Positions 8,288-52,151 of a stretch of DNA of 64,000 bases are shown here, piece by piece. Source of the stretch: Oscillatoriaceae cyanobacterium M7585_C2015_266 (lineage in GTDB: Bacteria > Cyanobacteriota > Cyanobacteriia > Cyanobacteriales > Oscillatoriaceae); assembly GCA_015295835.1 (NCBI GenBank), contig DVEG01000020.1, positions 393,709 through 457,708 on the forward strand, read 5' to 3'. Position 1 is the stretch's first letter, and each line of letters starts with the position of its first letter. The position numbers were made by a program, and so were the translations under genes. The notes under the pieces were generated by a model, which was not told where the DNA came from, ran no database searches, and saw only the letters and a list, made by a program, of their open reading frames with translations.

Positions 8288-8418
8288 TCAGCTTTGGCAA
8301 AAGTATTCATCCGTTTAAAGTAAATTTTTTGGGCAGAAATTTCTTTTGCTGCATTGTCACTATGAAATTGCAAATAAGTTATGGTTTTGCGGAGGATTTT
8401 TGGTAAAATAGCAACAGC

Positions 8419-8437
8419 CCCCGTTTAGTTAACGGGG
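8419..8437. terminator. Hairpin between convergent genes
   Basis: Perfect 7-bp arms, CCCCGTT and AACGGGG, enclose a TAGTT loop in the gap between the hydrate-repair gene (plus) and the PHP gene (minus). Its position fits a shared bidirectional terminator, though neither side has a long T-run. Confidence 0.5.
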
Positions 8438-8446
8438 TATAAAGCT

Positions 8447-9259
8447 CTATTTCAAACTATGGGCGGCTTGTTTGATAGGTTCGAGAAAAGACAGGGAAAG
8501 GTGCAACATATTGAGAACAGTGCCCTCCGAACTAGGGCCATGATAGTCGCTGCCGCCTGTAATCAGTAAACCATAATGGGCGCATAGTTTTTCTAAATTC
8601 TGAATTTCTGTAGGAGTGTGGCTTGGATGGTACACCTCAACCCCCATTAACCCTGCTTCTACTAATTGTTTAAGAACCTCTTCAACGGCACCGCCTCGGA
8701 ACAAATAGGGATGCGCCCAGACGGGAACTGCTCCGCAAGCGCGTAATAAAGAAATTCCTTCAGAAAAAGAGAATTTATGATAATCGACATAGGCAGGGCC
8801 ATCATCGCGTAACCAGCGCTCGAAAGCTTCGCGAGTTGATTGAACATATCCGGCTTTCAGAAGTGCGGTAGCGATATGTGGACGACCTGGTACTATGTTA
8901 TTACCGATATCAGGCAATTTAATTGGGTAGCCCAATTCGGCTAGTTTGTTAATTATTTCTTGGGCGCGGTTTTGGCGTTTTTGTTGAAGTTCACGCAGGG
9001 GTTCTTGCAACTTGTTGCGATTGGGATAAAAGCCTAAGATATGTAGCGAGCGCTCGTTGTAAACGGTACTTAATTCAATACCGGGAACGATTTCTACATT
9101 ATAATCTTGAGCTGCTGCTAGTGCCTCATCCCAGCCATTGAGGCTATCGTGATCAGTAATTGCCAGGGCGCGAACCCCTGCCGAAGCAGCAGCTTGTACG
9201 AGTTCTTTTGGGGTAAGAGTTCCGTCAGAATAAGTTGTGTGAGCGTGTAAGTCCAGCAT
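8447..9259 (-). CDS. PHP-domain phosphoesterase
   Basis: A 270-residue cytoplasmic protein with the polymerase-and-histidinol-phosphatase fold. Metal ligands are visible in DLHAHTTYSDG (residues 3-13), ALAITDHDSLNG (about 34-45), the glutamate of IVPGIELST, and the C-terminal LITGGSDYHGPSSEG. This set matches the YciV/RNase AM and 3',5'-nucleoside bisphosphate phosphatase group. The exact substrate (pAp or short RNA 5' ends) cannot be fixed from motifs alone. It is divergent from the MBL-fold gene at 9356. Confidence 0.9.
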   Translation of the reverse strand: MLDLHAHTTYSDGTLTPKELVQAAASAGVRALAITDHDSLNGWDEALAAAQDYNVEIVPGIELSTVYNERSLHILGFYPNRNKLQEPLRELQQKRQNRAQEIINKLAELGYPIKLPDIGNNIVPGRPHIATALLKAGYVQSTREAFERWLRDDGPAYVDYHKFSFSEGISLLRACGAVPVWAHPYLFRGGAVEEVLKQLVEAGLMGVEVYHPSHTPTEIQNLEKLCAHYGLLITGGSDYHGPSSEGTVLNMLHLSLSFLEPIKQAAHSLK

Positions 9260-10238: not shown

Positions 10239-11159
10239 ATGACAATTTCAAACCCAACAGTATCTACCCCAGAGACGCAATTTTACACCTGGAAAGGATA
10301 TCGCTGTGCGTATAGCGTGCATTTTCCAACTGATGGTACTACTGAAGGCATTCCCCTGCTTTTAATTCATCCCATAGGTGTTGGTTTGTCGCGCCAATTT
10401 TGGCAGAGGTTTTGTAGGGAATGGCATAATAAAGGCTATCGCAACCCGATTTATAATCCCGACTTGCTGGGATGCGGAGAGAGTGATAAACCTAGAGTAG
10501 CATATACTCCTACGGATTGGGCAGAGCAACTTAAATATTACATAGAAACAGTAATACAAAAGCCAGTGATTGCGCTCGCTCAAGGAGGGCTGACGCCAGT
10601 AGCTGTCTCTCTTACACAATTTGCCCCCGATAAAATTCGCGCCCTAGTTTTAAGTGGAGCTCCTGGTTGGGCTATAATAACCAAAGAAACCCCTGCTTGG
10701 CAACATAAAGTTTCTTGGAATCTTTTTGATTCTCCCCTTGGAAAAGCTTTTTACCGCTATGCCCGTCGCCGTCAATTTTTGCAGTCATTTTCAATTAAAC
10801 AGTTATTTGAGAATGCCAATAGTGTTGATGGAGAGTGGTTGGATACATTGGAAAAGGGGGCAGCAAATCTAGACACACGTTATGCTGTTTTTTCATTTTT
10901 AGCTGGATTTTGGAGGAAAAATTACCAAGGAGCGATCGCATCAATATCTCAACCGACTCTAGTAATAGTAGGAGAAAAAGCGACGAATATCAGCCGCGAA
11001 GGCAAGCAAGAGCCTCCCAGACAGCGACTTTCTAAATATCTGGAATACCTACAAAACGGGCAAGGAAGAATTATTTCTGGGCGAAATGTTCTGCCCTATG
11101 AATCAACTGCTGAATTTGTCGCTAGCGTAGCCGAGTTTGTAGCCACAATAAAAGTGTGA
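10239..11159 (+). CDS. Alpha/beta hydrolase
   Basis: A 306-residue alpha/beta-hydrolase-fold protein. LLLIHPIGVGLSRQFWQRF provides the oxyanion-hole strand, and NPDLLGCGESDKP follows. The nucleophile-elbow position reads VIALAQGGLTPVA, with a glutamine-glycine-glycine in place of the usual G-x-S-x-G, so the catalytic serine is not evident. I start at the ATG at 10239 (MTISNPTVS). An upstream in-frame ATG would overlap the preceding gene and translate through the hairpin at 10161. It lies 40 bases before the phosphatase gene, so co-expression is plausible. Substrate unknown. Confidence 0.82.
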   Translation: MTISNPTVSTPETQFYTWKGYRCAYSVHFPTDGTTEGIPLLLIHPIGVGLSRQFWQRFCREWHNKGYRNPIYNPDLLGCGESDKPRVAYTPTDWAEQLKYYIETVIQKPVIALAQGGLTPVAVSLTQFAPDKIRALVLSGAPGWAIITKETPAWQHKVSWNLFDSPLGKAFYRYARRRQFLQSFSIKQLFENANSVDGEWLDTLEKGAANLDTRYAVFSFLAGFWRKNYQGAIASISQPTLVIVGEKATNISREGKQEPPRQRLSKYLEYLQNGQGRIISGRNVLPYESTAEFVASVAEFVATIKV

Positions 11160-11199
11160 AGGCGGGCTGGCGAGCACATTCTCATTTACTGAATGCCCG

Positions 11200-11631
11200 A
11201 TGAAAAAAATATTATTTCTTTGTACAGGCAATTATTACCGCAGTCGGTTTGCCGAATATCTTTTTAACTTCCTAGCGGAAAAGCAAGGGATAAACTGGCG
11301 AGCATTTTCGAGGGGGTTAGCAATAGAAAGGGGAGTCAACAATATTGGAGCGATATCTCCCTACGCAAGAGAAGCTTTAAAAGTGAGAGGCTGTATAATT
11401 TCCGAGAACGAACGCTTACCACTGCAAGCAAAAGAGAAAGATTTTGCAGAAGCAGACCAAATTATAGCACTTAACGAATCAGAACATCGCCCCCTGATAA
11501 GAGAACGCTTTCCCAATTGGGAAGATGTGATCAAATACTGGCAAATAAATGATATAAACAAAACACCAGTAGAAGAAGCACTTTCAGATATAGAACAGCA
11601 AGTCAAGCGACTCATATCTATTCTAAGATAA
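11200..11631 (+). CDS. Low-molecular-weight phosphotyrosine phosphatase family protein
   Basis: The 143-residue cytoplasmic protein opens KKILFLCTGNYYRSRFAEYLF, which contains the C-x5-R P-loop of the LMW phosphatase/arsenate reductase family (Cys8 and Arg14). The usual C-terminal Asp-Pro general acid is not obvious; YWQINDINKTP holds a candidate aspartate without the proline. Members dephosphorylate protein tyrosine or reduce arsenate. The thioredoxin-coupled arsenate reductases need extra cysteines, and few are present here, so phosphatase is more likely. It follows the alpha/beta hydrolase by 40 bases. Confidence 0.85.
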   Translation: MKKILFLCTGNYYRSRFAEYLFNFLAEKQGINWRAFSRGLAIERGVNNIGAISPYAREALKVRGCIISENERLPLQAKEKDFAEADQIIALNESEHRPLIRERFPNWEDVIKYWQINDINKTPVEEALSDIEQQVKRLISILR

Positions 11632-11770
11632 ACTCTCTTAAAACTAGATTACCATCATAATTTCGATAGCATAGAAAATTTAGCAGGAATTTTCCGGTTG
11701 ACAAGCCCATTTCTCCTGAAAGTAAAAAAATTGCTATAAGACACTGATATCGTTATAGGAGAAAAAACAT

Positions 11771-13132
11771 ATGGGACGAATTTTTATTTCAGCAGGGCAC
11801 GGTGGCGGAGAAAATGCAATGGCTGAGCCGGGAGCGATCGCAGGTGGCACCACAGAAGCAAAAGAAATGATATTACTAAGAGACTTAATAGTAGCAGAGC
11901 TGCGATCACGAAATTTAGAAGTCTTAGCTGTGCCGGACGACTTAAATCGTGACGAAACAATTGCATGGATTAACGCCCGCTATATCCAGAGCGACGTCGC
12001 CCTAGAAATCCACGCCGATGCATTTTTCGATCCGGCAGTAAGAGGAACAAGCGTATATTATATAGCCAACAACGAGCAACGCAAAGCTGATGCAGAGCAA
12101 CTGCTACTAGCATTACTGCGAAGAGTACCACAGTTAGTGAATCGGGGTGCAAAGCCAGACAGCACAGCCGCCACTGGCAGCTTAGGTTTTTGTCGTCGTG
12201 TCATCAGCCCTTCCCTGCTAATGGAAGTAGGTTTTCTCACCAACGCTGAGGATCTCTTCCTCATACAAAACCGCCGCCGCGACATAGCAGCCGGAATTGC
12301 AGATGGGCTTGCCGCCTGGAGTCGTCGCCAGCCAATCCCGACAGCAACACCCGCACCCACTCCCTCACCCACTTATCCGCCTTGTAATATAAACATCAAC
12401 GGGTTTGTTCATGACGAGCAGGGCATCATCGTCAGCGGCAATGCTTTTATTCCGGTGGATTTAGTTGATACTTTGGGTATCGACTTGTCAAAAACTACTA
12501 GAATCTTCCGCCTCAGCTATAAAAGTGTCGTTTATGTCAGAGCGATAGAACTACGGGATTTTAATATATCGGTAAATTGGGATAATAGCACCGCGACAGT
12601 TAACTTGAGGACGATTTTACAGATCGATACCAGTCAAATCAATAGGATTATGGGGCGCGGCAATACGACAGAAATGCAGTTGATGATGTTTTTAAAAACC
12701 AATAATGAAAGCGCTCTTAAGCAGTTCCCGGATATTCCTAAGCTTTACCGAGAGGAAGGAATAATAGAAGGCGTTAACTATGATATTGCTTTCTGTCAGA
12801 TGTGTTTTGAGACAAATTTTCTGCGCTTTGGCGGTGATATTAAGCCGACGCAAAATAATTTCGCTAGTATCGGAGCTGTTGGTGGCAGCCAAGAGGCGGC
12901 TTCGTTTCCCAGCGCCCGTATCGGTGTCAGAGCTCACATTCAGCAGTTGAAAGCTTATGCTAGTACAGAGCCGATTGTACAGGAAATAGTCGCTCCCCGA
13001 TTTCGGTTTATCCGTCGGGGGATTGCTCCTACGGTTGAACAGTTGAGTGGGCGATGGTCCGCTGATCTCCGTTATGGCACAAAGATTATGGCAGTGTTGC
13101 GGCGATTTTACGAATTAGCGGGGCTATTGTAA
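11771..13132 (+). CDS. N-acetylmuramoyl-L-alanine amidase fused to a glucosaminidase-like domain
   Basis: A 453-residue peptidoglycan hydrolase with two catalytic modules. Residues 1-185 form an Amidase_3 domain with zinc ligands in ISAGHGGG, the GGTTEAKE glutamate and EIHADAF, plus the catalytic glutamate in LLMEVGFL. A Pro/Thr-rich linker (about 192-205) leads to a beta-rich middle segment. Residues from about 295 resemble the LytF/Flg-type glucosaminidase (NYDIAFCQMCFETNFLRFGG, NNFASIGAVGG). Together they would cut both the amide and glycan bonds. No signal peptide is present: the protein starts directly at the first catalytic strand. It precedes a secreted SH3 protein on the same strand. 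Confidence 0.85.
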   Translation: MGRIFISAGHGGGENAMAEPGAIAGGTTEAKEMILLRDLIVAELRSRNLEVLAVPDDLNRDETIAWINARYIQSDVALEIHADAFFDPAVRGTSVYYIANNEQRKADAEQLLLALLRRVPQLVNRGAKPDSTAATGSLGFCRRVISPSLLMEVGFLTNAEDLFLIQNRRRDIAAGIADGLAAWSRRQPIPTATPAPTPSPTYPPCNININGFVHDEQGIIVSGNAFIPVDLVDTLGIDLSKTTRIFRLSYKSVVYVRAIELRDFNISVNWDNSTATVNLRTILQIDTSQINRIMGRGNTTEMQLMMFLKTNNESALKQFPDIPKLYREEGIIEGVNYDIAFCQMCFETNFLRFGGDIKPTQNNFASIGAVGGSQEAASFPSARIGVRAHIQQLKAYASTEPIVQEIVAPRFRFIRRGIAPTVEQLSGRWSADLRYGTKIMAVLRRFYELAGLL

Positions 13133-13224
13133 AGTGCAAAAAAGCAAATTCTATGTGCTAGACTGGGGAAAGAGGTTTTCAGGATGCTGAACGAGTCTAA
13201 AAAACAAAGAAAATAGGGAAATTT

Positions 13225-13596
13225 ATGAGTATTAAAAATTTGATAGTCGCAGCGCTCGCTACGACTACGGTTGTATTTAGTGCTGCGACTGCTACTCAAG
13301 CACAAACAAATCCTTTTCCGGGTTTGGATTCTTATTGTGAGGCGACACTGAGAGGGAAGCAGCGGGATGCGCGTATTAATGTTCGCGAAGGGGCAGGGCT
13401 GAATTATCGCGTGCTGCACTACGGGATATCTGGCGATCGCGTTATGTTGCTGCGAGAAACTGCTAATGGAGATCCTGAAAAACTGGCGGTTCGTACTGAT
13501 AAGCAAGGTTATAATTGGTACAGGGTGGGTTTTCCTAAAACTCGCGCTACTGGTTGGGTTCGCGGCGATTTGCTAGAGCCGGAATGTTTTAATTAA
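13225..13596 (+). CDS. Secreted SH3-domain protein
   Basis: A 123-residue protein with a clear Sec signal peptide (MSIKNLIVAALATTTVVFSAATATQAQ, cleavage after about residue 27) and one bacterial SH3 domain. The INVREGAGLNYRVLHYGISGDRVMLL strand pattern and the closing YNWYRVGFPKTRATGWVRGDLL are characteristic. Bacterial SH3 domains bind cell-wall peptides, so it may assist the peptidoglycan hydrolase encoded 92 bases upstream. That link is inferred from position only. Confidence 0.85.
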   Translation: MSIKNLIVAALATTTVVFSAATATQAQTNPFPGLDSYCEATLRGKQRDARINVREGAGLNYRVLHYGISGDRVMLLRETANGDPEKLAVRTDKQGYNWYRVGFPKTRATGWVRGDLLEPECFN

Positions 13597-13625
13597 TATT
13601 TAATTTAATTAAATCAGGCAGGTTG

Positions 13626-15791
13626 CTAATTTTCTTTTTTTGTAGAAGGCTTTAAAAATAAAGGGGCTTGGTGGCGCTTTTGCTGCTTGATCGGAATTTC
13701 AATAATAAATTCTGTTCCTTTTCCTGGTTCAGAAATACACTCTAAGCGCCCGTGATGTTTTTCTACTATAATTTGGTAGCTTATAGACAACCCCAGCCCC
13801 GTACCTTTACCCACAGGTTTTGTGGTGAAAAATGGTTCGAATAAACGCGATCGCACTGATTCTGGCATTCCCACTCCATTATCGGCAATTCGTACCACAA
13901 CCCGTTCATTTTCAATCATTTCTGTACGAATCCGAATCACGGGCAACGGGCATTGGGTATTATATATAGACGAGGTTTTATCATCTACATTTGTAGTATT
14001 CCGTTGTGAATATGCTTGTTCAATGGCATCGATCGCATTACTAAGAATATTCATAAACACTTGATTGAGAGTACCAGCGTAGCAATCCACTGGTGGTAAG
14101 ACGCCGTAATCTTTAATTACTTGAATTGCTGGAGCTCCTGGTTTTCCTTTCAGACGATGCTGTAAAATTAATAAAGTACTGTCAATACCCTCGTGAATAT
14201 CCACTCGTTTTTTATCTGCCTCGTCTAAACGAGAAAAGTTGCGCAAACTCAAAACAATCTGTCGGATGCGCTCAGCTCCCACTTTCATTGAATTTAGCAA
14301 TTTTGGTAAATCTGCCATCAGAAAATTTAAATCAACTTTTTCTGATTGTTGTATAATTTCTGGAGTAGGGTTGGGGTAGGTTTGCCGGTATAAATTGAGC
14401 AGGCGTAGCAAATCTTCAATATATTGGGCGGCATAAGAAAGATTACCGTAAATAAAATTAACTGGATTATTGATTTCGTGGGCAATGCCGGCAACCAATT
14501 GCCCAAGAGAAGACATTTTTTCGGCTTGAATTAGTTGCGATTGGGTTTCCTGTAATTCGTGCAATGCTTTTTCAAGTTGCTGGGCTTGTTGTCGCAATTG
14601 CCCTTCCGACTGCCGCAATGCGTCTTCTACTCGTTGGCGATCGCGAATATCTTGCAAAAGCCGTGCATTCATTGCTTGCAACTCTGCTGTGCGCTCCTCT
14701 ACTTGTCTTTGCAAGTCGTCGCGAGCTCGCAACAGCGCTTCCTCTGCCTGCTGACGCACCAAAATCTCTTGCTGTAAACGCTCATTTATTTGTTTCAATT
14801 CGGAAGTGCGCTCTTCTACCGCCTGCTGTAACACCTCTATAATTCCATACATTTCCCTAGGATCGAGAGCTTGTAACAAACTCGTCTGAGAAACAATTCC
14901 CAGCAATTCTCCCTGAGAGCCTGTCACCACTAAACGCCTAACATGTCGCTTTTGCATTTGTTGATGCGCTTCCCATAAAGAATTATTAGGGCTAACACAA
15001 AAAAGCGGCGCGCTCATCACGTCTTTAGCTTGCAATTTAGATAAATTCAGCTCTAGTGCCTGAAATTGCAAGATATCCCTTTCTGTGACGATGCCCACAG
15101 GAATTGAGTTAGGGGTATTTTTTCCCTGCACTATCACTACACAACTAACTTGATACTCTGCCATTAACCTGGCAAGCTCAAATACAGAGGCTGAGGGCGG
15201 CGCTTGAATGACTTGAGGATTCATCACATCTTTAACATTGCGCAATCGCGTCAGCAAATTAGCAGGTTGCAACGCTCTGCGAATCGTCTCTGGCGTAACT
15301 ATCCCTAAGAGTTGCCCCTGTTTGTCTACTATGGGCAGATGGCGAATTCGGTGTTGTCGAAATAGGGCAAGAGCTGTAAAAATACCCTGCGAGTCTGATT
15401 TCGTCAGGGTAATTGCAGGTGCGCTCATTACTTCAGCAACTGTAAAGTTTTTTAAATCCTTGCCAGCAGCAGTCAGCTTGACTATATCTCTTTCTGTAAA
15501 AATCCCCAAAATCCGCGATTTGCCGATTGGTTTATCGGGCAATCGGCAGCAACCCGTCACCCCTTCCATGACTAAAACGCAACTTGCTCGCACTTCGGAT
15601 AATACATATGGCTCAGTGGCAGAGCCTGCAACTGGCAAGTTACAGCTGCTTCTCACTTCGCTCATTAGTGCCAAAACATCTATTAAAGGTGTATCTGGCG
15701 CAACAATTAGGGGATTGGGATCGATGGCGTATTCAAGAGCGGCTGAATATAGGAGTGCGTTATTAACTGACATGGTAGGGTAGGGCAGCAA
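13626..15791 (-). CDS. Hybrid-less sensor histidine kinase with four CBS domains
   Basis: The 721-residue soluble protein has two tandem CBS pairs at the N-terminus (about residues 20-310). FTERDIVKLTAAGKDL, VTPETIRRAL, VTERDILQFQALEL and VSQTSLLQAL mark their ends. A long coiled coil (about 315-425) follows, then a kinase core with phospho-acceptor histidine in GIAHEINNPVNFIYGNL (about 437), N-box NQVFMNILSNAIDAI and G-boxes DNGVGMP and GKGTGLGLSIS. CBS pairs usually sense adenylate nucleotides, suggesting energy-state input. The first CBS contains an odd internal repeat, SEVRSSC and SEVRASC. No response regulator lies nearby. Translation could also begin at MSVNN (15773). Confidence 0.93.
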   Translation of the reverse strand: MLPYPTMSVNNALLYSAALEYAIDPNPLIVAPDTPLIDVLALMSEVRSSCNLPVAGSATEPYVLSEVRASCVLVMEGVTGCCRLPDKPIGKSRILGIFTERDIVKLTAAGKDLKNFTVAEVMSAPAITLTKSDSQGIFTALALFRQHRIRHLPIVDKQGQLLGIVTPETIRRALQPANLLTRLRNVKDVMNPQVIQAPPSASVFELARLMAEYQVSCVVIVQGKNTPNSIPVGIVTERDILQFQALELNLSKLQAKDVMSAPLFCVSPNNSLWEAHQQMQKRHVRRLVVTGSQGELLGIVSQTSLLQALDPREMYGIIEVLQQAVEERTSELKQINERLQQEILVRQQAEEALLRARDDLQRQVEERTAELQAMNARLLQDIRDRQRVEDALRQSEGQLRQQAQQLEKALHELQETQSQLIQAEKMSSLGQLVAGIAHEINNPVNFIYGNLSYAAQYIEDLLRLLNLYRQTYPNPTPEIIQQSEKVDLNFLMADLPKLLNSMKVGAERIRQIVLSLRNFSRLDEADKKRVDIHEGIDSTLLILQHRLKGKPGAPAIQVIKDYGVLPPVDCYAGTLNQVFMNILSNAIDAIEQAYSQRNTTNVDDKTSSIYNTQCPLPVIRIRTEMIENERVVVRIADNGVGMPESVRSRLFEPFFTTKPVGKGTGLGLSISYQIIVEKHHGRLECISEPGKGTEFIIEIPIKQQKRHQAPLFLKPSTKKEN

Positions 15792-15954
15792 GTAGGTGTT
15801 TGTTAAGATACTGATTTGTAGTTTTGTAAAAAAAACTACTAAAATTGTGCCCTACCTCTAGCATAAATTAAATAATTTGTTAAAATCCTACACAAAAACT
15901 TAAATTTTGTCAACCAAAGCGCTGCCCTCCCTTTTCTACAATTAATTTATATTT

Positions 15955-15986
15955 CTCTGGATGGCATCATATGGCACCATCCAGAG
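15955..15986 (-). terminator. 10-bp perfect hairpin downstream of the 15993 gene
   Basis: Arms CTCTGGATGG and CCATCCAGAG pair perfectly around a 12-nt loop, just past the stop of the leftward gene at 15993. The following minus-strand bases are AT-rich but not a T-run. A terminator or transcript-end stem is likely. Confidence 0.5.
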
Positions 15987-15992
15987 CTATAA

Positions 15993-16718
15993 TTAACTAA
16001 CAGCGAGCGCTTCCATTTCGCTCACTTTTGGCGGCAGCAACATCATATTTTTTGTCTCGTCGCTTGTCATTAAGCGAATAATTTCATGTGGTGACAAGTG
16101 ATCAATACAAACCATATTTCGCGTTGCTTCTAAATCTATTAATCGCGCTTGGTTATTCTCATCTTCCAAAGCAGCAGCAATTTGCTCCAACCGTGCCCAT
16201 GCCTTATCTGCTTGTGCATCAAGCTGTTTGAGTATGGGATCTTGCACATTGGAAAATTTGGCACCACGTTCGTACCATTGCCAGGATAGGGAATAATAAT
16301 TAATCGGTTTTATTACTCCAAATTCATCTGGTTTTTGACCAGAATGTTTGACAAACTCCGGAACGAAAATTCCCTCTGCTGGTTCAATGCCGCGAGCCAT
16401 GACTTCGGTTACTTTGCAGTTAAAATCACTGAGCGATCGCCCCTTTATATATGTTACCATGACAACTCCTTGAGGCAAATCACCAGCTTCTGCAACAAAC
16501 CATATTTGCCCCCACAAAGTATTTTGCGTTTGACCTAAACTGCCAAAAAATTTACTGAATTTGATAATTGTCATTGCCAGTTTTGAGCCATATTCTTGCT
16601 CGCCAATTGTCCAACGCCCCGACTGGCAATTATTGCGAACTGTGATCGGTAATTCTGGAATAATGATAGCATTAGCAGGCTTGCTACCAAAAACCGAGAT
16701 TTTAGATTTTTTAGACAT
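15993..16718 (-). CDS. Uncharacterised protein controlled by the XRE/ImmA divergent promoter
   Basis: I do not recognise this 241-residue protein. It appears soluble with no signal peptide. An N-terminal half rich in beta strands contains GRWTIGEQEYGSKLAMTII and TLWGQIWFVAEAGDLPQGVVMVTYIKGRSLSDF. A helical segment follows (KQLDAQADKAWARLEQIAAAL, about 165-190), then a short C-terminal tail. The beta-rich region with aromatic residues hints at a nucleic-acid-binding or phage-type accessory fold, but that is speculation. It lies 23 bases downstream of the 86-residue gene at 16742 and is probably co-transcribed with it from the operator region at 17015-17088. Confidence 0.75.
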   Translation of the reverse strand: MSKKSKISVFGSKPANAIIIPELPITVRNNCQSGRWTIGEQEYGSKLAMTIIKFSKFFGSLGQTQNTLWGQIWFVAEAGDLPQGVVMVTYIKGRSLSDFNCKVTEVMARGIEPAEGIFVPEFVKHSGQKPDEFGVIKPINYYSLSWQWYERGAKFSNVQDPILKQLDAQADKAWARLEQIAAALEDENNQARLIDLEATRNMVCIDHLSPHEIIRLMTSDETKNMMLLPPKVSEMEALAVS

Positions 16719-42887: not shown

Positions 42888-43721
42888 TCAATTAAGAGGC
42901 GATCGCATTTTTTCAGCTTTCAATTGAGTTGCTTTGCTATTTTGACGATATAACGCCGCTCGATGCTGAGCCGTTTTATAGCGGGGATCATTAGGCGGTA
43001 CAGTAGCCATCAAATCCGACGCCTGCTGCCATTTAGCAGCAATTTTCAACCAATCAGCCGCTGATTGGGCTTTTTTCCCGTCGTTACTCGCTCCTTCTGC
43101 CAGTCGCACCGCATATGCAAAAGGATCTGGCGTCGTCTTTGGCTGGGCTTGCAAAACCACTTTGAAAATAGGCCAGCCCAATGAATTAGCCAGTGCCACC
43201 CCTAACACCAGAAAGAACATTAGACTGATTCCGCCTACAAGAGTCCCCTGCCAAAATAGATTTGTTTCACGCTTGTAACGGCTAGAAAATTGAGAATTGG
43301 CCACTAGGGGAAAAGGGGCGCTTTCACTGTTGCGGTTTCTTATATCTTCCAGTAGCCGCTTGAAAAAATTCGGTCTGGCTAGGGTTATATCCTGATACCA
43401 CAGCAGTTGTTTCTCCGGCTCTCGACTGATTTCCTCCAGCCAAAGTAATTGTTGTTCTCGAACAATCCGGCTATTAATCCTAACTCGCCTGATATTACGC
43501 GGAGCCAATGACTCCAAAATCTGCCGAACACCCTCGACGACAGTAGATTGTTCCAGTTGTTCAGGCTTGGCAGCCTCGCACAGCAATTGCAAGACTCCGT
43601 TTTCTAAAACGGCTCGGGTTCTAACACCCGTTTTTGCTAGTTTTTCATTTAAGATTTGAATAATAGCTGCAACGCTACCCTGCCGCGCTTGTCTGGCAAT
43701 GTCATTCATCGGATGTGTCAT
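42888..43721 (-). CDS. Uncharacterised single-pass membrane protein
   Basis: The 277-residue protein has a soluble N-terminal half of about 155 residues containing DIARQARQGSVAAIIQILNEKLAKTG and RRVRINSRIVREQQLLWLEEI. One membrane helix follows (LFWQGTLVGGISLMFFLVLGVALAN, about 158-182), then an alpha-helical C-terminal part resembling a TPR-like helical pair. I cannot name the family. A conserved cyanobacterial family is likely because similar N-terminal patterns recur in that phylum. It is divergent from leuD. Confidence 0.68.
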   Translation of the reverse strand: MTHPMNDIARQARQGSVAAIIQILNEKLAKTGVRTRAVLENGVLQLLCEAAKPEQLEQSTVVEGVRQILESLAPRNIRRVRINSRIVREQQLLWLEEISREPEKQLLWYQDITLARPNFFKRLLEDIRNRNSESAPFPLVANSQFSSRYKRETNLFWQGTLVGGISLMFFLVLGVALANSLGWPIFKVVLQAQPKTTPDPFAYAVRLAEGASNDGKKAQSAADWLKIAAKWQQASDLMATVPPNDPRYKTAQHRAALYRQNSKATQLKAEKMRSPLN

Positions 43722-44752: not shown

Positions 44753-45097
44753 ATGCTGCTGAAGTCCACAACCCGCCACATTCACATTTTTGCCGCCGAA
44801 ATTAAAGACGATGAATTTGTTCCCAGCGAAGAGGTGTTAACTCTGGATGTTGATCCAGATAATGAATTTAACTGGAATGAGGAAGCCTTGCAGCAAGTTT
44901 ATCGGAAATTTGATGAGCTAGTTGATTCTTATACGGGGGAAGAGTTGACAGAATATAATATTCGTCGCATTGGTTCGGATTTGGAGCATTTCGTGCGCTC
45001 GCTCTTACAAAGTGGCAAAATCAGCTATAATCTCAACAGTCGCGTTCGTAACTACAGTCTGGGATTGCCCCAGGTAGATTCCGAAGGCAGCATTTAA
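44753..45097 (+). CDS. ndhM: NAD(P)H-quinone oxidoreductase subunit M
   Basis: A 114-residue peripheral subunit specific to the photosynthetic NDH-1 complex of cyanobacteria and chloroplasts, needed for cyclic electron flow. The sequence KSTTRHIHIFAAEIKDDEFVPSEEVLTLDVDPDNEFNWNEEALQQVYRKFDELVDSYTGEELTEYNIRRIGSDLEHFVRSLL matches NdhM in length and pattern. No other ndh gene is adjacent. A 9-bp hairpin separates it from the paralogue cluster downstream. Confidence 0.95.
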   Translation: MLLKSTTRHIHIFAAEIKDDEFVPSEEVLTLDVDPDNEFNWNEEALQQVYRKFDELVDSYTGEELTEYNIRRIGSDLEHFVRSLLQSGKISYNLNSRVRNYSLGLPQVDSEGSI

Positions 45098-45297: not shown

Positions 45298-46233
45298 ATG
45301 CAGAAAGCAGAACTCTTATTTCCAGAGCTTCCAAAAGCCCGAAAACAGCAAAGAGAGGGCAAAATATCAAAACTCGTGTTGACAGAATACGCGGCTTTGA
45401 CAGTTTCTGCTCTGGGCTGTATTGCAGCAGTGGCGTCTGCACAGGTGGCTTACGCGGCAATTCCTCTGACGCTGAGTTTGGGGCTGAATTTGCTAAACCG
45501 CTACCGATGGGAGCAAAAGACAAGGGCTAATATTCAAAGTAATAAGGAGGCGCTTGCTCAAATAGAGCGGCAATTGCAAAACCAGATAGAAAGGCTGCAA
45601 GCCCAGGTGCAAATGCTGCCTACAAGCGAGCGCATCACAGACGTAGAAGCATCAATGCTTAGACTTAGCACTTTCTGGGGGCAAATACAACAGCGACTCG
45701 AACAGCAACCCTCCCCTGCTTTTGATGCAAAGATTCGCCAGGAATTTGCTATTCTCCGCAGAGCAATAATTAGGTTGCGCGACAGTAGTGAAGCCAATAT
45801 CGCTACAGTTTGCCAGAATCTGGAGCGAGAAATTTCTCTACTGCAAGAGAAACTAGCACAGACGAGTGAAGTGGCTGAGCGAGCAGCGCAGCGAGCCTTA
45901 GCAGATGGCTCAACAGCGGAAATTGCCTACAAGCGATCGCAAATAGCTCAGATGCAAAAACGAGTTGCTAAACTGGAGCTGAAAAATCAACAAATTGTCA
46001 AACCCTACCTCCAACGCCTAGCCCAGGATGTAAAACAGCAGCAATCCGATACTGCACGCATTGAGGAATCATTAGAAAAACTCACAAACAGCATCGTCGA
46101 TTTGATGTCACAGATTGACAGCCTGGGCAAACCATCCACTCCTCAACTCTACTCCCTATCGATTCAAAAACTATCCGAAAATTTGCCCACAAGAGCGACA
46201 TCCTCCAAATTATCTAATAGACTACAGCCATAG
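45298..46233 (+). CDS. Membrane-hairpin coiled-coil protein, paralogue 1
   Basis: First of four tandem paralogues. The 311-residue protein has a hydrophobic hairpin near residues 25-62 (LTEYAALTVSALGCIAAVASAQVAYAAIPLTLSLGLNLLNRYRWEQK). Long coiled coils follow (about 70-225; LAQIERQLQNQIERLQAQVQML, NLEREISLLQEKLAQTSEVAERAAQ). The C-terminal motif is KLELKNQQIVKPYLQRLAQDVKQQQ (about 222-247). The membrane segment is followed by basic residues, so the coiled coil is probably cytoplasmic. No catalytic motif. This copy is the most diverged at the N-terminus, lacking the WLE triplet. Confidence 0.82.
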   Translation: MQKAELLFPELPKARKQQREGKISKLVLTEYAALTVSALGCIAAVASAQVAYAAIPLTLSLGLNLLNRYRWEQKTRANIQSNKEALAQIERQLQNQIERLQAQVQMLPTSERITDVEASMLRLSTFWGQIQQRLEQQPSPAFDAKIRQEFAILRRAIIRLRDSSEANIATVCQNLEREISLLQEKLAQTSEVAERAAQRALADGSTAEIAYKRSQIAQMQKRVAKLELKNQQIVKPYLQRLAQDVKQQQSDTARIEESLEKLTNSIVDLMSQIDSLGKPSTPQLYSLSIQKLSENLPTRATSSKLSNRLQP

Positions 46234-46333
46234 CAGGCACTTAACTCCGCAAAAAACACCTTCTCAAAAATCGAGGAGATGGTGCGGCAATCTCGGAAAA
46301 TCAAGGGAAGGCATCTCAGGCAAATCTGACACT

Positions 46334-47095
46334 ATGCAAAAAATACAACCATCATTCTCAGCTTTGACTGACAGAAGGCATCAGCGGCACTGGTTAGAAG
46401 TGGCAGAATACGTCTCTCTAGTAAGCTCGGCTGTAGGAACAATTCTGGCAGCAGCATCTCAACAATTTGTTTTTGCAGCAGCTCCTTTAACTCTGGCAGT
46501 ATTCTTAAATTTCCTCAATCGCCCTCGCATCCCTAAAAAAACTGAGCCATCCGATATAGCCTCCCTCGACTTCGACAATGACTTATATAAAGCGCCAATA
46601 CCCGCAGCAATTGAACAGGAAATAGCTCATTTGCACGCATCTCTGAATAGCTTACAGGAAAGCACTACAGCCCAGGTAGAAGAAGTCTATCATTATGTGG
46701 ATAATGTTCTAGGGGGAATGAATCTGAATGCGGTACACTGCGCATTACGGGAACTACGCACCAGTGCCGAACGCTTACAGAAAACTGCTCTCAATCAACA
46801 AGACTGGGAAACGCTCAATGTTCGATTTTTACTGCTTGAGGAAGCGCTCGCTAAGCTACAGGCACTCACCCCTAACATGGCTTCGCCTACCACCGCCTCT
46901 AAGCCTCAGCCGTCTTTCACAGAGGCTCTCGCTCTTCTACGTGCCGAGCAGCAAGCCCAGCACGCCAAGTTGCAACACCGCCTTGCTCAACTTGAGCAAA
47001 AAAATCGCGCCATTATTAAACCCTATTTGCAGCGCTTGGTTGCTGATGTCAAGCAGCTTCGTCAACAAATAGCATCCCAGCAACGCCCAAACTGA
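46334..47095 (+). CDS. Membrane-hairpin coiled-coil protein, paralogue 2
   Basis: Second paralogue, 253 residues from ATG 46334. The N-terminus contains RRHQRHWLEVAEYVSLVSSAVGTILAAASQQFVFAAAPLTLAVFLNFLNRPR (about 15-66). A shorter coiled coil (about 80-200) leads to LAQLEQKNRAIIKPYLQRLVADVKQLRQQI, close to the C-terminal end. An upstream in-frame ATG at 46115 would overlap paralogue 1 by 119 bases and start without homology, so I reject it. Short intergenic spacing (100 bases) suggests co-transcription. The C-terminal motif lies at the very end of the protein. Confidence 0.8.
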   Translation: MQKIQPSFSALTDRRHQRHWLEVAEYVSLVSSAVGTILAAASQQFVFAAAPLTLAVFLNFLNRPRIPKKTEPSDIASLDFDNDLYKAPIPAAIEQEIAHLHASLNSLQESTTAQVEEVYHYVDNVLGGMNLNAVHCALRELRTSAERLQKTALNQQDWETLNVRFLLLEEALAKLQALTPNMASPTTASKPQPSFTEALALLRAEQQAQHAKLQHRLAQLEQKNRAIIKPYLQRLVADVKQLRQQIASQQRPN

Positions 47096-47245
47096 ACTAT
47101 TTCAAGCGCCGGCTGCAGGCACTTTGTCTACAGTCGGCAAAAAATTAACAACATTAAATTTTATTTTGTCAAAGTGAAAATAACATTAAATAGAAGAGAA
47201 AAAAAAGAGAATGAATATATAAATAGCGATCGAGGATAGCAAGTT

Positions 47246-49294
47246 ATGAACAATAAACGCAACTGGTTAGAAATTGTCGAATACATCTCGATCGCTGGCT
47301 CAATAGTCGGGTCAATTGTAGCAGTAATATCACAGCAAATGATTTATGCTGCGACACCGATATCTCTATCGTTAGTGTTAAATTTACTCAATAGAAAACG
47401 ATGGGAGAATGGTTGGCAACAAGGGGGAGCAGATGAAATCATTGAGATAGAAAAGCAGATCTCAAGGAATGTAGAAGCACTGCGCGAACAAATTTTAGCC
47501 CTGCCAAATCAGAGAGATTTGGGAGGAATGCAAGCTGCATTGGAACGGATGGGGAGAGGGCTTGCCCAAGTCGAAAGTGAAATAGCCATACAAACCAGAG
47601 AGTTGGGGAGCGTACAAGCTAACTTTCAAAATTTAGCTAGTAGCCTCAAGGATTTGTCAGAAATACAAGCGCAAATCGAGCAACTTTCTCAGAGAATTGA
47701 AGAGCGAGCGCCTACTCTAGCCCTTCAAGAGCCCGCAGACTTAAAATCTGTACAGCGACAAATCGACGAATTAAGACAGGCACTAGGCAGTCTATCCAAA
47801 GGAATCGCCAATCTAGAGCGAGAGGCGCAAAATCTAGTTTCTAGAAAAGAATTAGGCTTCCTAACTTCAGAAATAGAGAAAATCCAGCGGCAACAAAAAA
47901 TTATAGAGCAATCCGTCACGCCAATAGCCGGGGAGTTGGGCAGATTGTCTGAGCGCATTGCCGACGTAAGAATTCATCTTAACGCCCTCAGGGAAGAATT
48001 AAACAAGCAACCCCCAAACTCTGTAGAGCAGATGGCAGAATTGAGGGATGCTTTGGCGAAAATACAGCAGCAATTCGAAGAACTCCCTAATCCATCGCAA
48101 CAAAAAGATTTGGGGGGTGTAGAAGCAGGTTTGAAAAAACTAGCCGAAGAAATAGCAGCTCTGCGGGCTGAGGTGGAAACTCGCCTCGACGAGATAAAAA
48201 CTAACGAACTTTATCCCATGCGAGGGGAAATCGCCCAATTGCAAACGCAGTTAGCAAGTTTGCAGGCATCTTTCCAGCGGTTAAGCGATCGCTTTTTAAA
48301 TCAGACTCGTGAGCCTATACCCCCCTCACAACCTACCGAGAGCAAAATACAAACCAAAGAGCCATCCTCAGTGTCACCGTTGTGGAGATGCATTCATACA
48401 CTAAGAGGACATTCGAGCGCTGTGACGTGCTTATGCATCAGCCCTGACGGCAAAAAGCTGGCAAGCGGAAGTTATCAAGAAATCAAACTGTGGAATTTAG
48501 AGACAGCAGAAGCAATTAAAACCTTGGAAGTAAAATCAGAAGCAATGGCAGTTTCTTCCCTAGCGATTGCTCCTAGTGGGGATATCCTCGCTTGTGCCAA
48601 CGGCAACGTTGAAATATGGCATCTAGAAAGCGGAGAATTGATTCGCACGATTGAAACTTCCTCCTGGGCTTCTTCAATTGCTATCAGTCTAGATGGTAGA
48701 ATTCTCGTCAGCACAGGAGAAGATCCAGTAGACGAGACAGGTTCGCTGCAGATATGGAATCTAGTAACAGGAGAATTGCTGTGGGAGTTTGAAGAAGCAA
48801 GCAACTGTGTTGCTATCAGCCCCGACGGGCAAATCTTGGCAAGTGGCGGCAAACAAGTAGACGAAATCGAGGATTTTGAAGAAACAGGGTTAATTCAGGT
48901 GCGACATCTGGATACAGGGGAAATCCTGTACTCATTAACCGAACATTCTGGTAAAGTTTATTCAGTAGCCATCAGCCCCGATGGGCAAATCTTAGCCAGT
49001 GGCAGCCAAGAGCGAACAGTTAAATTGTGGAATCTGAAGACAGGAAAACTGCTGCGAACCCTTACAGGGCACTCGCTGACGGTTCATTCAGTTGCCATCA
49101 GCCCTGACGGAAAATTCCTAGCAAGCGGTAGTGCAGATAAAACAATCAGGGTGTGGAATTTAAATGCTGGGGAATTGATCCAAACCCTCGGCGAACATTC
49201 GGAAAAAGTGGCTGTTGTGGCTTTCAGCCCTCAAGAAAACGTTCTCGTCAGTGGCTCACAGGATGAGACAATTAAGATTTGGCGCCAATGTTAA
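47246..49294 (+). CDS. Membrane-hairpin coiled-coil protein fused to a seven-repeat WD40 propeller
   Basis: Third paralogue, 682 residues. Residues 1-54 are RNWLEIVEYISIAGSIVGSIVAVISQQMIYAATPISLSLVLNLLNRKRW, closely matching paralogues 2 and 4. About 60-350 is extended coiled coil. From about 380, seven WD40 repeats are readable (blades starting LRGHSSAVTCLCISPDG, then EAMAVSSLAIAPSG, SSWASSIAISLDG, ASNCVAISPDG, HSGKVYSVAISPDG, HSLTVHSVAISPDG, HSEKVAVVAFSPQ), closing one propeller. The C-terminal KPYLQRL motif of the other three is absent. A partner-binding scaffold is likely; no enzyme domain is present. Confidence 0.88.
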   Translation: MNNKRNWLEIVEYISIAGSIVGSIVAVISQQMIYAATPISLSLVLNLLNRKRWENGWQQGGADEIIEIEKQISRNVEALREQILALPNQRDLGGMQAALERMGRGLAQVESEIAIQTRELGSVQANFQNLASSLKDLSEIQAQIEQLSQRIEERAPTLALQEPADLKSVQRQIDELRQALGSLSKGIANLEREAQNLVSRKELGFLTSEIEKIQRQQKIIEQSVTPIAGELGRLSERIADVRIHLNALREELNKQPPNSVEQMAELRDALAKIQQQFEELPNPSQQKDLGGVEAGLKKLAEEIAALRAEVETRLDEIKTNELYPMRGEIAQLQTQLASLQASFQRLSDRFLNQTREPIPPSQPTESKIQTKEPSSVSPLWRCIHTLRGHSSAVTCLCISPDGKKLASGSYQEIKLWNLETAEAIKTLEVKSEAMAVSSLAIAPSGDILACANGNVEIWHLESGELIRTIETSSWASSIAISLDGRILVSTGEDPVDETGSLQIWNLVTGELLWEFEEASNCVAISPDGQILASGGKQVDEIEDFEETGLIQVRHLDTGEILYSLTEHSGKVYSVAISPDGQILASGSQERTVKLWNLKTGKLLRTLTGHSLTVHSVAISPDGKFLASGSADKTIRVWNLNAGELIQTLGEHSEKVAVVAFSPQENVLVSGSQDETIKIWRQC

Positions 49295-49516
49295 ATTTAG
49301 CATCCTTCTCTTGCCTCCTGTGAAATTGTTTGACTATAAAAAAAGTAATTAAAAATTTAACTTAAATATATCAGGGTATCTGCGCTCAATATTCTAAATA
49401 AAATTCTTGCCCTTGCTACCGTTAAGCAGTGAGAACTTAAAAGTTATAACTTAAGTTATAAAACTAAAGTTTTCACTAGTTTTTGATTATTTAAGAAACA
49501 AAAAAGTGAGAGGGAA

Positions 49517-50527
49517 ATGGCATCAGTTATCCCGAAAGAAATGAAAGCAAAAGCAACAAAAAAGCGATCGCAGTTATCTGCAGAGCAGAAAAACACCGAT
49601 AAACAGGAGCGCTGGTTAGAAATTGTAGAGTGGACTTCCCTGGCGGGCTCAGTTATTGGCACAATAGTAGTGGGGTTATCTGGTCAAATTTTAAATGCAA
49701 CCGTGGGAGCAGGTTTAGCACTAACAATATCCCTGAGTCTGGTAAATCGGCATAAACTCAACCAGCAGCAGCGACAAGAAACAGAAGCAGCCATAGCTGA
49801 AGTACACCACGTTTTAGAAACCCTGTATTACCAACTACAAAAGCTAGCAGCAGAACCCATTGAAATCGAACCGATGCACCAAGCACTATTTCAATTAGGA
49901 GCAGCAACACAACGCTTGGAAAGCAGCGCCGCATTTTCCTCAGAAGATTTGCAGGCAGTAAGCGCCGAAGTAGAGCTACTGCGCTCTACAATTTACGAGC
50001 TCCAGGGGGAACTGCAAGTCTTAGCTAAAAGATCCGCTGATATCCTACCTCTTCAGGATGAAATAAAAAAAATTAACCGCCGACTAGATACCCTGCCGCC
50101 ACCTTTCGCTCCAAGAGAGCTATACCGGAAAGTCGCTGAGCTGGAGCAAAAAAATCAAAAAATTTTCAAGCCATACCTACAGCGCCTGGCGCAGCACGTC
50201 AAGCAGTTAGATCAGAAAAATGCTCTCCTGTCAAGAAGGCTGCAGTTATTGGTAGAGAATTTTAACAATCGTCCGGAGTTGAAACAAATGCAAGGGTTGC
50301 AGGGGATAGTAGCTGAATTGGTGAGAAATGTTGATCGGCTGCAGGAACTGCCAAATATAAGTAGAAAAATTGATAATTTGAGCGCGCAGTTGGATAATGA
50401 ATTGCAACCGGCGCAGATTCTGAAACTGACTGAGGAATTGGCACACTTACCTCTGGTTTCGGAATTAGAAAATTTGCAAGGGGCGAGCATGAAAATTGGT
50501 CAAAACCAAGTTTTTCAGAAACCCTAG
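49517..50527 (+). CDS. Membrane-hairpin coiled-coil protein, paralogue 4
   Basis: Fourth paralogue, 336 residues. A charged N-terminal extension (about 1-30, MASVIPKEMKAKATKKRSQLSAEQKN) precedes ERWLEIVEWTSLAGSVIGTIVVGLSGQILNATVGAGLALTISLSLVNRHK (about 30-80). Coiled coils follow, then VAELEQKNQKIFKPYLQRLAQHVKQL (about 200-230), where the KPYLQRL motif is internal rather than terminal, and a final helical tail (to 336). The hairpin is the most diverged in its second half. Function unknown; treat as part of the same system. Confidence 0.8.
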   Translation: MASVIPKEMKAKATKKRSQLSAEQKNTDKQERWLEIVEWTSLAGSVIGTIVVGLSGQILNATVGAGLALTISLSLVNRHKLNQQQRQETEAAIAEVHHVLETLYYQLQKLAAEPIEIEPMHQALFQLGAATQRLESSAAFSSEDLQAVSAEVELLRSTIYELQGELQVLAKRSADILPLQDEIKKINRRLDTLPPPFAPRELYRKVAELEQKNQKIFKPYLQRLAQHVKQLDQKNALLSRRLQLLVENFNNRPELKQMQGLQGIVAELVRNVDRLQELPNISRKIDNLSAQLDNELQPAQILKLTEELAHLPLVSELENLQGASMKIGQNQVFQKP

Positions 50528-50609
50528 AATTAATTATTCTAATACCGGGTTTTGGAGATTAGGGAATTTAGGGGTGTTATTTTAATATGTGAAAAGTGAT
50601 CGCTTTCAC

Positions 50610-52151
50610 ATGATTTATAACCGCAGGGTGTTTTTAAAAGCTTTTTTACTAGGTTTAGCATCTCCTTTTCTAAGTCGGGTGCCAACACTTTCGCAGCCCT
50701 CACCTGTCAATCCCACCATTCTCGAAAATCAAAAACCCGGTAGCACTGACTGGCAATTGACTAATCCTGCTACTAAACGGGAAATTGAAGGCTATGCCTC
50801 TCTTACAAGTGTTGATCGCGGCTCGGAAATTAAATTTTTTGTCAATACTTCTGAGCCTAGTTACACTATTGAAATTTTTCGCATGGGATGGTATAAAGGT
50901 ATGGGTAGTCGTCGCATGACTGAGCCTATTACCTGTGCAGGGGTGAAGCAGCCACCACCAATTGAGGATGTCGCCTCAGGATTGATTGAATGTGATTGGA
51001 AAAACCCTTTTATTTTAAAAATTCCTAGCAACTCAACTGATCCTACCGATTGGGCAAGTGGGATTTATTTAGCCAAACTCACAGCGGGAAATAGTGGCAA
51101 GCAGAGTTATATTATCTTTGTCGTAAGAGATGATAAGAGAGCTTCCGATATTCTTTTTCAATCTAGTGTGACGACATTTCAGGCTTATAATAATTGGGGC
51201 GGAAAATCTCTTTATCGGTGGAATAGTAAGGGAAAACAAGCTTATAAAGTTTCTTTTAATCGTCCTTATGCCGCTAGTCCGAATCCGGCTGCTGCTTATG
51301 GTGTAGGGGCGGGTGAGTTTTTAACTAATTTTCAACCGCAGCGGCGAACTTCTAGTGCTGCCTGGGAATACAATATGGTGCGTTGGTTGGAACGAGAAGG
51401 TTATGATGTAACTTATGCTACTAATGTAGATACTCATTTTAATAAACGGCTGCTGTTGTCTCACAAGGTGTTTTTATCCGTTGGGCATGATGAATATTGG
51501 TCTTGGGATATGAGGCAAAATGTGGAGGCGGCACGGGATAAGGGTGTCAGTCTCGGTTTTTTTTCGGCGAATACTTGTTATTGGCAAATTCGCTTTGATA
51601 CAAGTCGTATTACTGGTGATGTCAACCGTACTATTGTTGCTTATAAGGAAATGGCAGCAAAAGATCCGTTTGCGATCGCTTTCGATCCCTATTACCCTCG
51701 CATCACAACTCTCTGGCGGGATAAACGGGTGAATCGCCCAGAAGATGCTCTTATCGGCGTCATGTACGAAACTTTTCAAGTTAATAGCGATATTATTATA
51801 GATAATGCCCCTGATTGGTTGCTGACAGGTACGGGGCTGAAAAAAGGTGACAAATTACCCGGACTTTTGGGCTATGAGGTAGACCGCATGTTTGGTAATG
51901 CACCAAAAAATACTATTCGCGTTTGTCATTCACCATATAATTATAAAGGGGAGACAAGATATTCTGATATGACGATTTATACTGCCGATAGTGGTGCACT
52001 GGTTTTTGCCACTGGTTCAATGCAGTGGAATTGGGGATTAGATGATTTTAACGCGCCGCAATTGCGTCCATCTCTTGTTAATCCAGCTGCCCAAAGAATT
52101 ACTCGCAATGTTCTTGATCGCATGATTGCTAATTGTGAATTTGGAAAATAA
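50610..52151 (+). CDS. Tat-exported N,N-dimethylformamidase beta-subunit-like protein
   Basis: A 513-residue protein with a twin-arginine signal (YNRRVFLKAFLLGLASPFLSRVPTL). The body contains DWQLTNPATKREIEGYASLTSVDRGSEIKFFVNTSEPSYTIEIFRMGWYKGMGSRRM and GHDEYWSWDMRQNVEAARDKGVSLGFFSANTCYWQIRF. These patterns match the family annotated as N,N-dimethylformamidase beta subunit-like, which combines beta-rich and alpha/beta modules. The true substrate in cyanobacteria is unknown. I start at ATG 50610; a GTG at 50589 would add seven residues before the Tat motif. Confidence 0.83.
   Translation: MIYNRRVFLKAFLLGLASPFLSRVPTLSQPSPVNPTILENQKPGSTDWQLTNPATKREIEGYASLTSVDRGSEIKFFVNTSEPSYTIEIFRMGWYKGMGSRRMTEPITCAGVKQPPPIEDVASGLIECDWKNPFILKIPSNSTDPTDWASGIYLAKLTAGNSGKQSYIIFVVRDDKRASDILFQSSVTTFQAYNNWGGKSLYRWNSKGKQAYKVSFNRPYAASPNPAAAYGVGAGEFLTNFQPQRRTSSAAWEYNMVRWLEREGYDVTYATNVDTHFNKRLLLSHKVFLSVGHDEYWSWDMRQNVEAARDKGVSLGFFSANTCYWQIRFDTSRITGDVNRTIVAYKEMAAKDPFAIAFDPYYPRITTLWRDKRVNRPEDALIGVMYETFQVNSDIIIDNAPDWLLTGTGLKKGDKLPGLLGYEVDRMFGNAPKNTIRVCHSPYNYKGETRYSDMTIYTADSGALVFATGSMQWNWGLDDFNAPQLRPSLVNPAAQRITRNVLDRMIANCEFGK

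Follow-up and report, generated by a model that had tools for sequence, protein, structure and literature searches.

A hairpin module recurrent among cyanobacteria and a four-gene cluster of probable membrane-tethered coiled-coil scaffolds in the Oscillatoriaceae

Our analysis concerns four tandem genes, g1 to g4, in a 64,000-nucleotide stretch of the genome of Oscillatoriaceae cyanobacterium M7585_C2015_266 (contig DVEG01000020.1, forward-strand positions 393,709 to 457,708; the whole stretch is called the window here). All four products begin with a homologous hydrophobic hairpin followed by a coiled coil. This hairpin is a cyanobacterial plug-in part, fused in different proteins to WD40, TPR, phospholipase D (PLD)-like, pentapeptide or GUN4 domains and, once, to FtsZ. 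The g1 to g4 proteins themselves are probably membrane-tethered coiled-coil scaffolds that recruit clients through their C-termini, with the four co-assembling. A first-pass annotation of the same DNA had proposed membrane-attached filaments or scaffolds, possibly hetero-oligomeric; scaffolds and hetero-oligomers are still the most plausible reading, and our results give no sign of filaments. The genes and their parts lie as follows in the window; genomes (G) and loci (L) carry our working numbers throughout.

45298..46233, plus strand: g1, 311 residues; hairpin, coiled coil, KPYLQRL motif and C-terminal tail
45370..45525, plus strand: hairpin of g1, hairpin profile match
45964..46050, plus strand: KPYLQRL helix of g1, by motif pattern and profile
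46334..47095, plus strand: g2, 253 residues; hairpin, coiled coil and C-terminal KPYLQRL motif
46391..46543, plus strand: hairpin of g2, hairpin profile match
46982..47068, plus strand: KPYLQRL helix of g2, within a predicted helix at residues 195-249
47246..49294, plus strand: g3, 682 residues; hairpin, coiled coil and WD40 propeller
47264..47419, plus strand: hairpin of g3, hairpin profile match
48401..49291, plus strand: WD40 beta-propeller of g3, residues 386-682, Pfam WD40
49517..50527, plus strand: g4, 336 residues; hairpin, coiled coil, KPYLQRL motif and further coiled coil
49613..49774, plus strand: hairpin of g4, with a two-residue insertion at the YAA-P turn
50132..50221, plus strand: KPYLQRL helix of g4, by motif pattern and profile

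The open reading frames bear out the first-pass description of four consecutive plus-strand genes spaced by 100 to 222 bases, the gaps g1/g2, g2/g3 and g3/g4 being 100, 150 and 222 bases; the ATG of g2 at 46334 sits within a longer, mechanically called frame (46115-47095). The common N-terminal hairpin likewise held up. With the first 234 residues of g1 as query against its own genome, g3 was recovered at an E value of 4.5e-14 and g2 at 6.1e-9, and g4 as a lone query found a g2-type protein of the relative G387 at 2e-21. Near the N-terminus, all four proteins have two hydrophobic segments (best 17-residue Kyte-Doolittle means, 1.5-2.1). The long coiled coils were also confirmed, in that the 3.5-residue hydrophobic periodicity behind the hairpin was equalled by 0, 1, 0 and 0 of 1000 shuffles for g1, g2, g3 and g4, respectively. 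Absent from the earlier description was the WD40 propeller at the C-terminus of g3, where residues 386-682 match Pfam WD40 at an E value of 5.8e-61 (200.8 bits; cut-off, 27). Pfam finds no TPR in g1, g2 or g4, and g3 has WD40 instead. On the hairpin and on the KPYLQRL helix of g1 to g4, all Pfam and NCBIfam models stay below their cut-offs, and neither g2 searched against plasmids nor residues 1-385 of g3 searched against phages gave a match.

The four genes had been taken for a local gene family, a notion that the distribution of the hairpin contradicts. A seven-row profile built from the own-genome hairpins has matches in 75 of the 386 cyanobacterial genomes that were sampled from across the phylum (48 of 143 genera), with one to eight copies each, and the own genome holds three members outside the window, spread over two other contigs. 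Searching a genome collection with the pattern QQ[VM][IV]YAAxP, which itself biases the sample, yielded 34 confirmed loci from 56 matched stretches, all with cyanobacterial titles. The consensus of 120 non-redundant hairpins, taken from 167 (some of them one gene in two loci), reads W-L-E-x-A-E-Y and then G, QQ, YA, P, LN and NR-x-R, with conservation in the key columns of 97% (E), 94% (G), 91% (P), 92% (N) and 97% (R). Two hydrophobic segments of about 17 residues are joined at a QQ turn, with a near-invariant glutamate before the first and Asn-Arg after the second; the mean net charge is -0.3 ahead of the hairpin and +1.7 behind it.

To 80 wide loci, a subset of the places found, we added the window, L007 and L008, and these 83 sources contain 88 hairpin proteins at E < 1e-3. 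L052 was excluded for want of a standard start codon ahead of its hairpin, though the frame is open. In the mechanical frames the hairpins begin between residues 5 and 93 (median, 13), and in 15 of the 88 beyond residue 30, where the true start codon may be further in. WD40 follows in 27 proteins, a PLD-like module in 14 (10 of them with TPR thereafter) and TPR alone in 8, leaving 39 with none of these, among which the KPYLQRL proteins are also counted. Within the 39, L066 and L084 carry pentapeptide repeats by Pfam and L090 looks similar, and L126 has a GUN4 domain (E 4.4e-39); since the single-protein Pfam scans covered ten-protein samples of the 39, additional domains may hide there. L048 (G172; 7003-8655, minus strand) encodes a whole FtsZ behind the hairpin and coiled coil (Tubulin, E 3.6e-30; FtsZ_C, 7.4e-30), in which GTPase and T7-loop-like motifs seem, by eye, to be retained, so that it is possibly a self-anchored FtsZ. 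In the NCBIfam and PADLOC tallies over the 88, taken as the first 25 families, the top entries are coiled-coil matches (SMC/Rad50-like, LmuB and JetC) and repeat families.

A tree of the hairpins (64 columns) left 67 of 117 inner branches open. Architecture labels on it change 36 times against a shuffled mean of 66.4 and are therefore clustered, yet they change repeatedly. Most likely, the hairpin is the constant part and what it presents to the cytoplasm the variable one; this would explain why the window proteins are alike mainly at their N-termini, as they would have an anchor in common and not a function. Several entries are the same places and hence not independent, namely L127 and G390, L128 and L143 and G392, L129 and G391, L130 and L049, L135 and G389, and L159 and L051.

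KPYLQRL, assigned by the first-pass annotation to three of the genes, is exact in g1, g2 and g4 (window positions 46000, 47018 and 50168); a fourth exact match of the degenerate pattern lies on contig 33 of the own genome and reads KPYFQR. A profile built from 11 motif regions found 28 places at E < 1e-6 in 13 of the 386 genomes, in families f1, f7 and f18 only; two weak places (E 0.0017 and 0.0089) fall outside this count. By-hand comparison with the hairpin matches showed that a hairpin precedes the motif at all 28 strong places, 26 with a frame of equal length and two (G203 C21 and G354 C126) in the same frame with no intervening stop. L125, a false match from one lax search, had entered the KPYLQRL tree as its 24th row and was rejected as a KPYLQRL protein. 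The structural model of g2 places the motif inside one long, confident helix (residues 195-249), with block means of the predicted local distance difference test score (pLDDT) of 73-95, at least 82 from residue 201 on; a fold search with this model returned nothing below E 0.2. The motif is a candidate assembly or docking helix.

The hairpin occurs in all eight sampled genomes of the host's family, the own one included, with seven to eight copies in seven of them and five in G392 (66% complete). Six of the seven relatives within the family have orthologues of g1 to g3, often with the same twin-arginine translocation (Tat)-type DMFA2_C gene behind them, and the order g1-g2-g3 is kept in G387, G388, G389, G390 and G391; G386 keeps g2-g3-DMFA2_C and has its g1 orthologue elsewhere. 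In the tree, the g1 orthologues make up a group of seven rows (support, 89) and the g2 orthologues another of seven (support, 99), both with the own genome among them. For g4, no counterpart was found in the host's family, and it pairs weakly (support, 85) with a G229 protein. The ratios of nonsynonymous to synonymous substitution (dN/dS) of g1, g2 and g3 between G387 and G388 are 0.13, 0.20 and 0.20, and selection on the three genes is purifying. Tandem clusters had been expected to be restricted to filamentous cyanobacteria: by inspection, they are found only in the host's family and G229, the named ones being Oscillatoria and Microcoleus, in agreement with that expectation, but the hairpin itself is wider.

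Two genes flank the cluster in the window.

44753-45097: NdhM gene, upstream of g1 (Pfam E 8.2e-55)
50589..52151, plus strand: DMFA2_C gene (PF20254, Pfam E 1.9e-120), with a Tat-like signal by eye

The DMFA2_C gene begins 61 bases past the end of g4, and in G386, G388 and G389 it begins at most 65 bases past that of g3. G392 has DMFA2_C and g3 on one small contig, and in G393, from another family, 775 bases separate DMFA2_C and a hairpin-WD40 gene; the DMFA2_C frame of G387 holds one TAG. The relatives also reveal a larger arrangement. Both G387 and G388 show a WD40 form, a PLD form and a PLD-TPR form, then an amidase (AguB by eye), g1, a small membrane protein, g2 and g3, and G389 has PLD-TPR, amidase, g1, small membrane protein, g2, g3 and DMFA2_C; the small protein between g1 and g2 is DUF7733 in L135. 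The other half of this superlocus is found in the own genome on a separate contig (L007), adjacent to two coiled-coil proteins that are related to each other.

Some further observations concern these surroundings. The two proteins just mentioned (L007:9609-11766) are a mutually related pair of about 335 and 360 residues, with no Pfam match in the three scanned, and their relatives also adjoin hairpin genes in G390, G391, G392, G386 and G229 (L127, which equals L187, L129, L128, L179 and L066). Next to them, beside the own paralogues, L007:11774-15981 holds SPFH/Band_7, a weak sigma-region-4 match, DUF1822 and CHAT, which recalls published conflict-system neighbourhoods. The gap between g3 and DMFA2_C (window 49295-50588) looks like an insertion site, filled in the window by g4; G387 and G391 have there a pair of open reading frames, alike by eye (L183:82-2232; L174:6710-8773), and the beginning of one of the two resembles that of a DNA cytosine methyltransferase. 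A 277-residue protein without a Pfam match is encoded at window positions 42888-43721 (minus strand), and its relatives directly adjoin the pentapeptide-type hairpin genes of L084 and L090. The hairpin-GUN4 protein (L126:8595-10346) is followed on the same strand by a large kinase/AAA protein (10707-16313).

The eight TPR-only members lead to a protein with a name. An Fe-S gene lies 39-646 bases upstream, with V4R genes further upstream, in all eight and in L079; a phycobilisome-domain gene is found just upstream in six of the eight and in L079, and a Ser/Thr kinase gene less than 300 bases downstream in six of the eight (Pfam identities of these neighbours were taken from L110 and L092). The SpkG kinase and Slr0151 are reportedly, to go by the title of one paper cited in PMC10151467, involved in the phosphorylation of ferredoxin 5. 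PMC10151467 itself describes how Fe-S, V4R and globin (phycobiliprotein-like) genes cluster in Synechocystis as slr0144-slr0149, next to slr0150-slr0152. Because all eight TPR-only members lie in such a slr0144-slr0152-like cluster, they look like Slr0151, a protein of photosystem II assembly or repair. According to PMC4853703, Slr0151 has 320 residues, with TPRs at 185-252, and is an intrinsic membrane protein that shows a punctate distribution in several membranes and is present in a high-molecular-weight complex; inactivating Slr0151 alters thylakoid ultrastructure. The antigen used there started at residue 62, omitting the N-terminal transmembrane region. From the same source we translated the primer at that position, which gives HLFNRKQ and resembles the LNLLNRxR end of the hairpin, and the reverse primer, which gives ...ANLFG-stop, while L108 ends GNLFG.

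Slr0151, as these sources describe it, shares with the TPR-only members an N-terminal membrane region with an (L)FNRK-type sequence directly behind it, then TPR, and a genomic setting among V4R, Fe-S, phycobiliprotein-like and kinase genes, and we infer that they are orthologues. One profile matches both g1 to g4 and the eight TPR-only proteins, but g1 to g4 have no TPR, g1, g2 and g4 having KPYLQRL instead, and the slr0144-slr0152-type cluster is absent from the window, where the neighbours are the NdhM and DMFA2_C genes. The first-pass remark that no named family with this combination was known stands for Pfam and NCBIfam models and apparently gives way for the TPR-only architecture; the profile search which that annotation had put forward as its refuting check went halfway against it, with one form resembling Slr0151 and KPYLQRL remaining unnamed. 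One branch is apparently known, and membrane-tethered coiled-coil scaffolds are a known kind of protein.

A second recurrent neighbour is the magnesium transporter gene mgtE. Across 117 sources, 15 hairpin genes start 5-205 bases behind a same-strand MgtE gene (L109, L127-L129, L070, L076, L095, L103, L107, L112, L119, L121, L125, L093 and L111; MgtE identified by Pfam on L127). Twelve of them are spread over 10 families and three more are from Oscillatoria, and 13 of the 15 are WD40 forms. The pair is about 350 bases apart in G387 and G388, and the corresponding WD40 gene of the own genome (L007) has no MgtE neighbour. Hairpin proteins are a possible MgtE partner. Among open-licence papers, we found none on one hairpin common to all these proteins, none linking Slr0151 to WD40, PLD or KPYLQRL forms and none on MgtE with WD40 in cyanobacteria.

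The PLD-like module belongs to the sister proteins, not to g1 to g4. Two such proteins scanned singly (L007 and L058) gave no Pfam match at 0.01 for it, but a model of the L129 protein (mean pLDDT 53.6; PLD part mostly 70-90) matches PLD-fold proteins in the PDB: F13, TrmBL2, Nuc, NucT and FAM83B. The top-ranked matches, vaccinia F13 and TrmBL2, are of the PLD fold or alike; Nuc (1byr) matches at E 8.2e-6 with a template modelling (TM) score by target of 0.62, and FAM83B with a TM score of 0.55. The module resembles the single-HKD PLD fold of Nuc, NucT and FAM83B (DUF1669). The HxK of the HKD motif is, by eye, retained in one of 15 module sequences, a set that includes L007:4349-7435, and since it is lost in 14, as in non-catalytic PLD folds, most of these modules look non-catalytic. 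FAM83 proteins are scaffolds, and the PLD module is likely a non-catalytic scaffold as well.

For g1 to g4, membrane insertion, topology, hetero-assembly and a client are what we infer. The hairpin would sit in the membrane with both ends cytoplasmic, and the coiled-coil stalk behind it would bear either a client-binding C-terminal module or the KPYLQRL helix, the latter in g1, g2 and g4. These three would join g3 via stalks and KPYLQRL helices, the WD40 propeller of g3 would capture the client, and all four would together form a single membrane patch. The DMFA2_C protein looks exported and may act across the membrane from them, perhaps as a partner. Slr0151, a membrane-anchored TPR protein found in patches, would be the experimental precedent for such a patch, if it is what the TPR-only members are.

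Several points weigh against this scaffold proposal. The hairpin of the g2 model has a pLDDT of about 40-50, so that its two-helix fold rests on sequence, and the segments, at 17 residues, are on the short side for spanning a membrane fully. Gene order, architecture and two primer sequences are the basis for linking the TPR-only members to Slr0151. DMFA2_C lies 2.3 kilobases from g3 in G387, 2.6 kilobases in G390 and 16 kilobases in G391, and G397 has DMFA2_C and no hairpin gene within the 20 kilobases read. Furthermore, g1 and g2 were not found in G392, which is 66% complete, and between G390 and G391 dN/dS rises to 0.43 for g1 and 0.52 for g2, with 0.23 for g3.

The last point could be read differently: the hairpins may be anchors only, and g1, g2 and g4 decaying or redundant duplicates of the WD40 protein. 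The fast evolution of g1 and g2 in that genome pair and the lack of a g4 orthologue in the host's family agree with this. However, g1 and g2 each form one seven-row set with the KPYLQRL-type motif kept, and their low ratios in G387/G388 speak for constraint, which makes decay very unlikely. The domain repertoire raises another alternative, a conflict module for immunity or cell death, in which the hairpin would be an effector-associated anchor, like effector-associated domains and SLATT two-transmembrane effectors, and the WD40, TPR and pentapeptide parts sensors. Dispersed paralogues with differing C-terminal modules and the CHAT and DUF1822 genes of L007 fit such a role, and the systems described in PMC7159879 repeatedly contain GUN4, beta-propeller, TPR, pentapeptide and coiled-coil parts. 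The hairpin profile also aligns over 60 columns with the N-terminal two-transmembrane segment of seven cyanobacterial SLATT_1 proteins (hhalign probability 87; score 33.5 against 30.3 for the best of 150 block shuffles; reversed profile, probability 0.4), a likeness spotted by eye before the test, with the shuffle control added later and a shallow SLATT-side profile (Neff 2). Singly, though, only four of these seven N-termini fall below 1e-4 when a larger hairpin profile is used, and the core of SLATT remains unmatched (probability 0.6). The PADLOC matches of g3 fall on its coiled coil, and repeat and coiled-coil families figure in the tallies of the other 87 members. The orthologous sets, which evolve under purifying selection across the host's family, and the MgtE and slr0144-type placements look like housekeeping. 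We accordingly give the conflict reading little credence. Membership of g1 to g4 in SLATT was rejected, since g4 reaches SLATT_1 (NCBIfam), the library match closest in kind to the hairpin, with E 0.017 and 15.1 bits against a cut-off of 41, the domain stays below cut-off in g1 to g4, and SLATT_1 has no match in the own genome. The divergent N-terminal hairpin is found in seven of the 14 SLATT_1 loci collected. These seven proteins (L227-L233) carry it as an extra two-transmembrane segment, with IDYLL...NQQY...NR in most.

A role in cell morphology is unlikely as well but deserves mention. Membrane-attached coiled-coil structures that shape filamentous cells have been proposed for SepT and other coiled-coil-rich proteins, and SepT (All2460), according to PMC10653889, has a matching anatomy of two N-terminal transmembrane segments (residues 12-50), coiled coils and a cytoplasmic C-terminus. 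One member is fused to FtsZ, and the 34 named loci, in a pattern-biased sample, come from filamentous genera or from unclassified cyanobacteria. Yet no homology to the hairpin was seen in the SepT-type proteins of 30 TerB_C loci (best E 0.12; hhalign probability 9), which led us to reject SepT membership, and TerB_C, which sets SepT apart, is absent from the Pfam matches of g1, g2 and g4, from the best 25 of g3 and from the own genome. The FtsZ fusion is one of 88 proteins, and the best-studied likely relative, Slr0151, concerns photosystem II. Other filament-forming candidates, including Fischerella Fm7001 (PMC7002697), were considered from their published description.

The scaffold reading can also be widened. 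As a decidedly unlikely extension, the hairpin could be a general membrane socket, with paralogues of differing C-terminal modules co-assembling via hairpin and stalk into common membrane patches; one scaffold system, hitherto undescribed as such, would then serve photosystem repair (Slr0151), magnesium entry (MgtE partners), septation (the FtsZ fusion) and the KPYLQRL/WD40 set of the window.

In conclusion, if membrane-tethered scaffolding is the correct reading of g1 to g4 and their relatives, MgtE and DMFA2_C would be predicted as partners, and an undescribed membrane module would tie Slr0151, a studied but mechanistically unclear protein, to dozens of anonymous cyanobacterial proteins.

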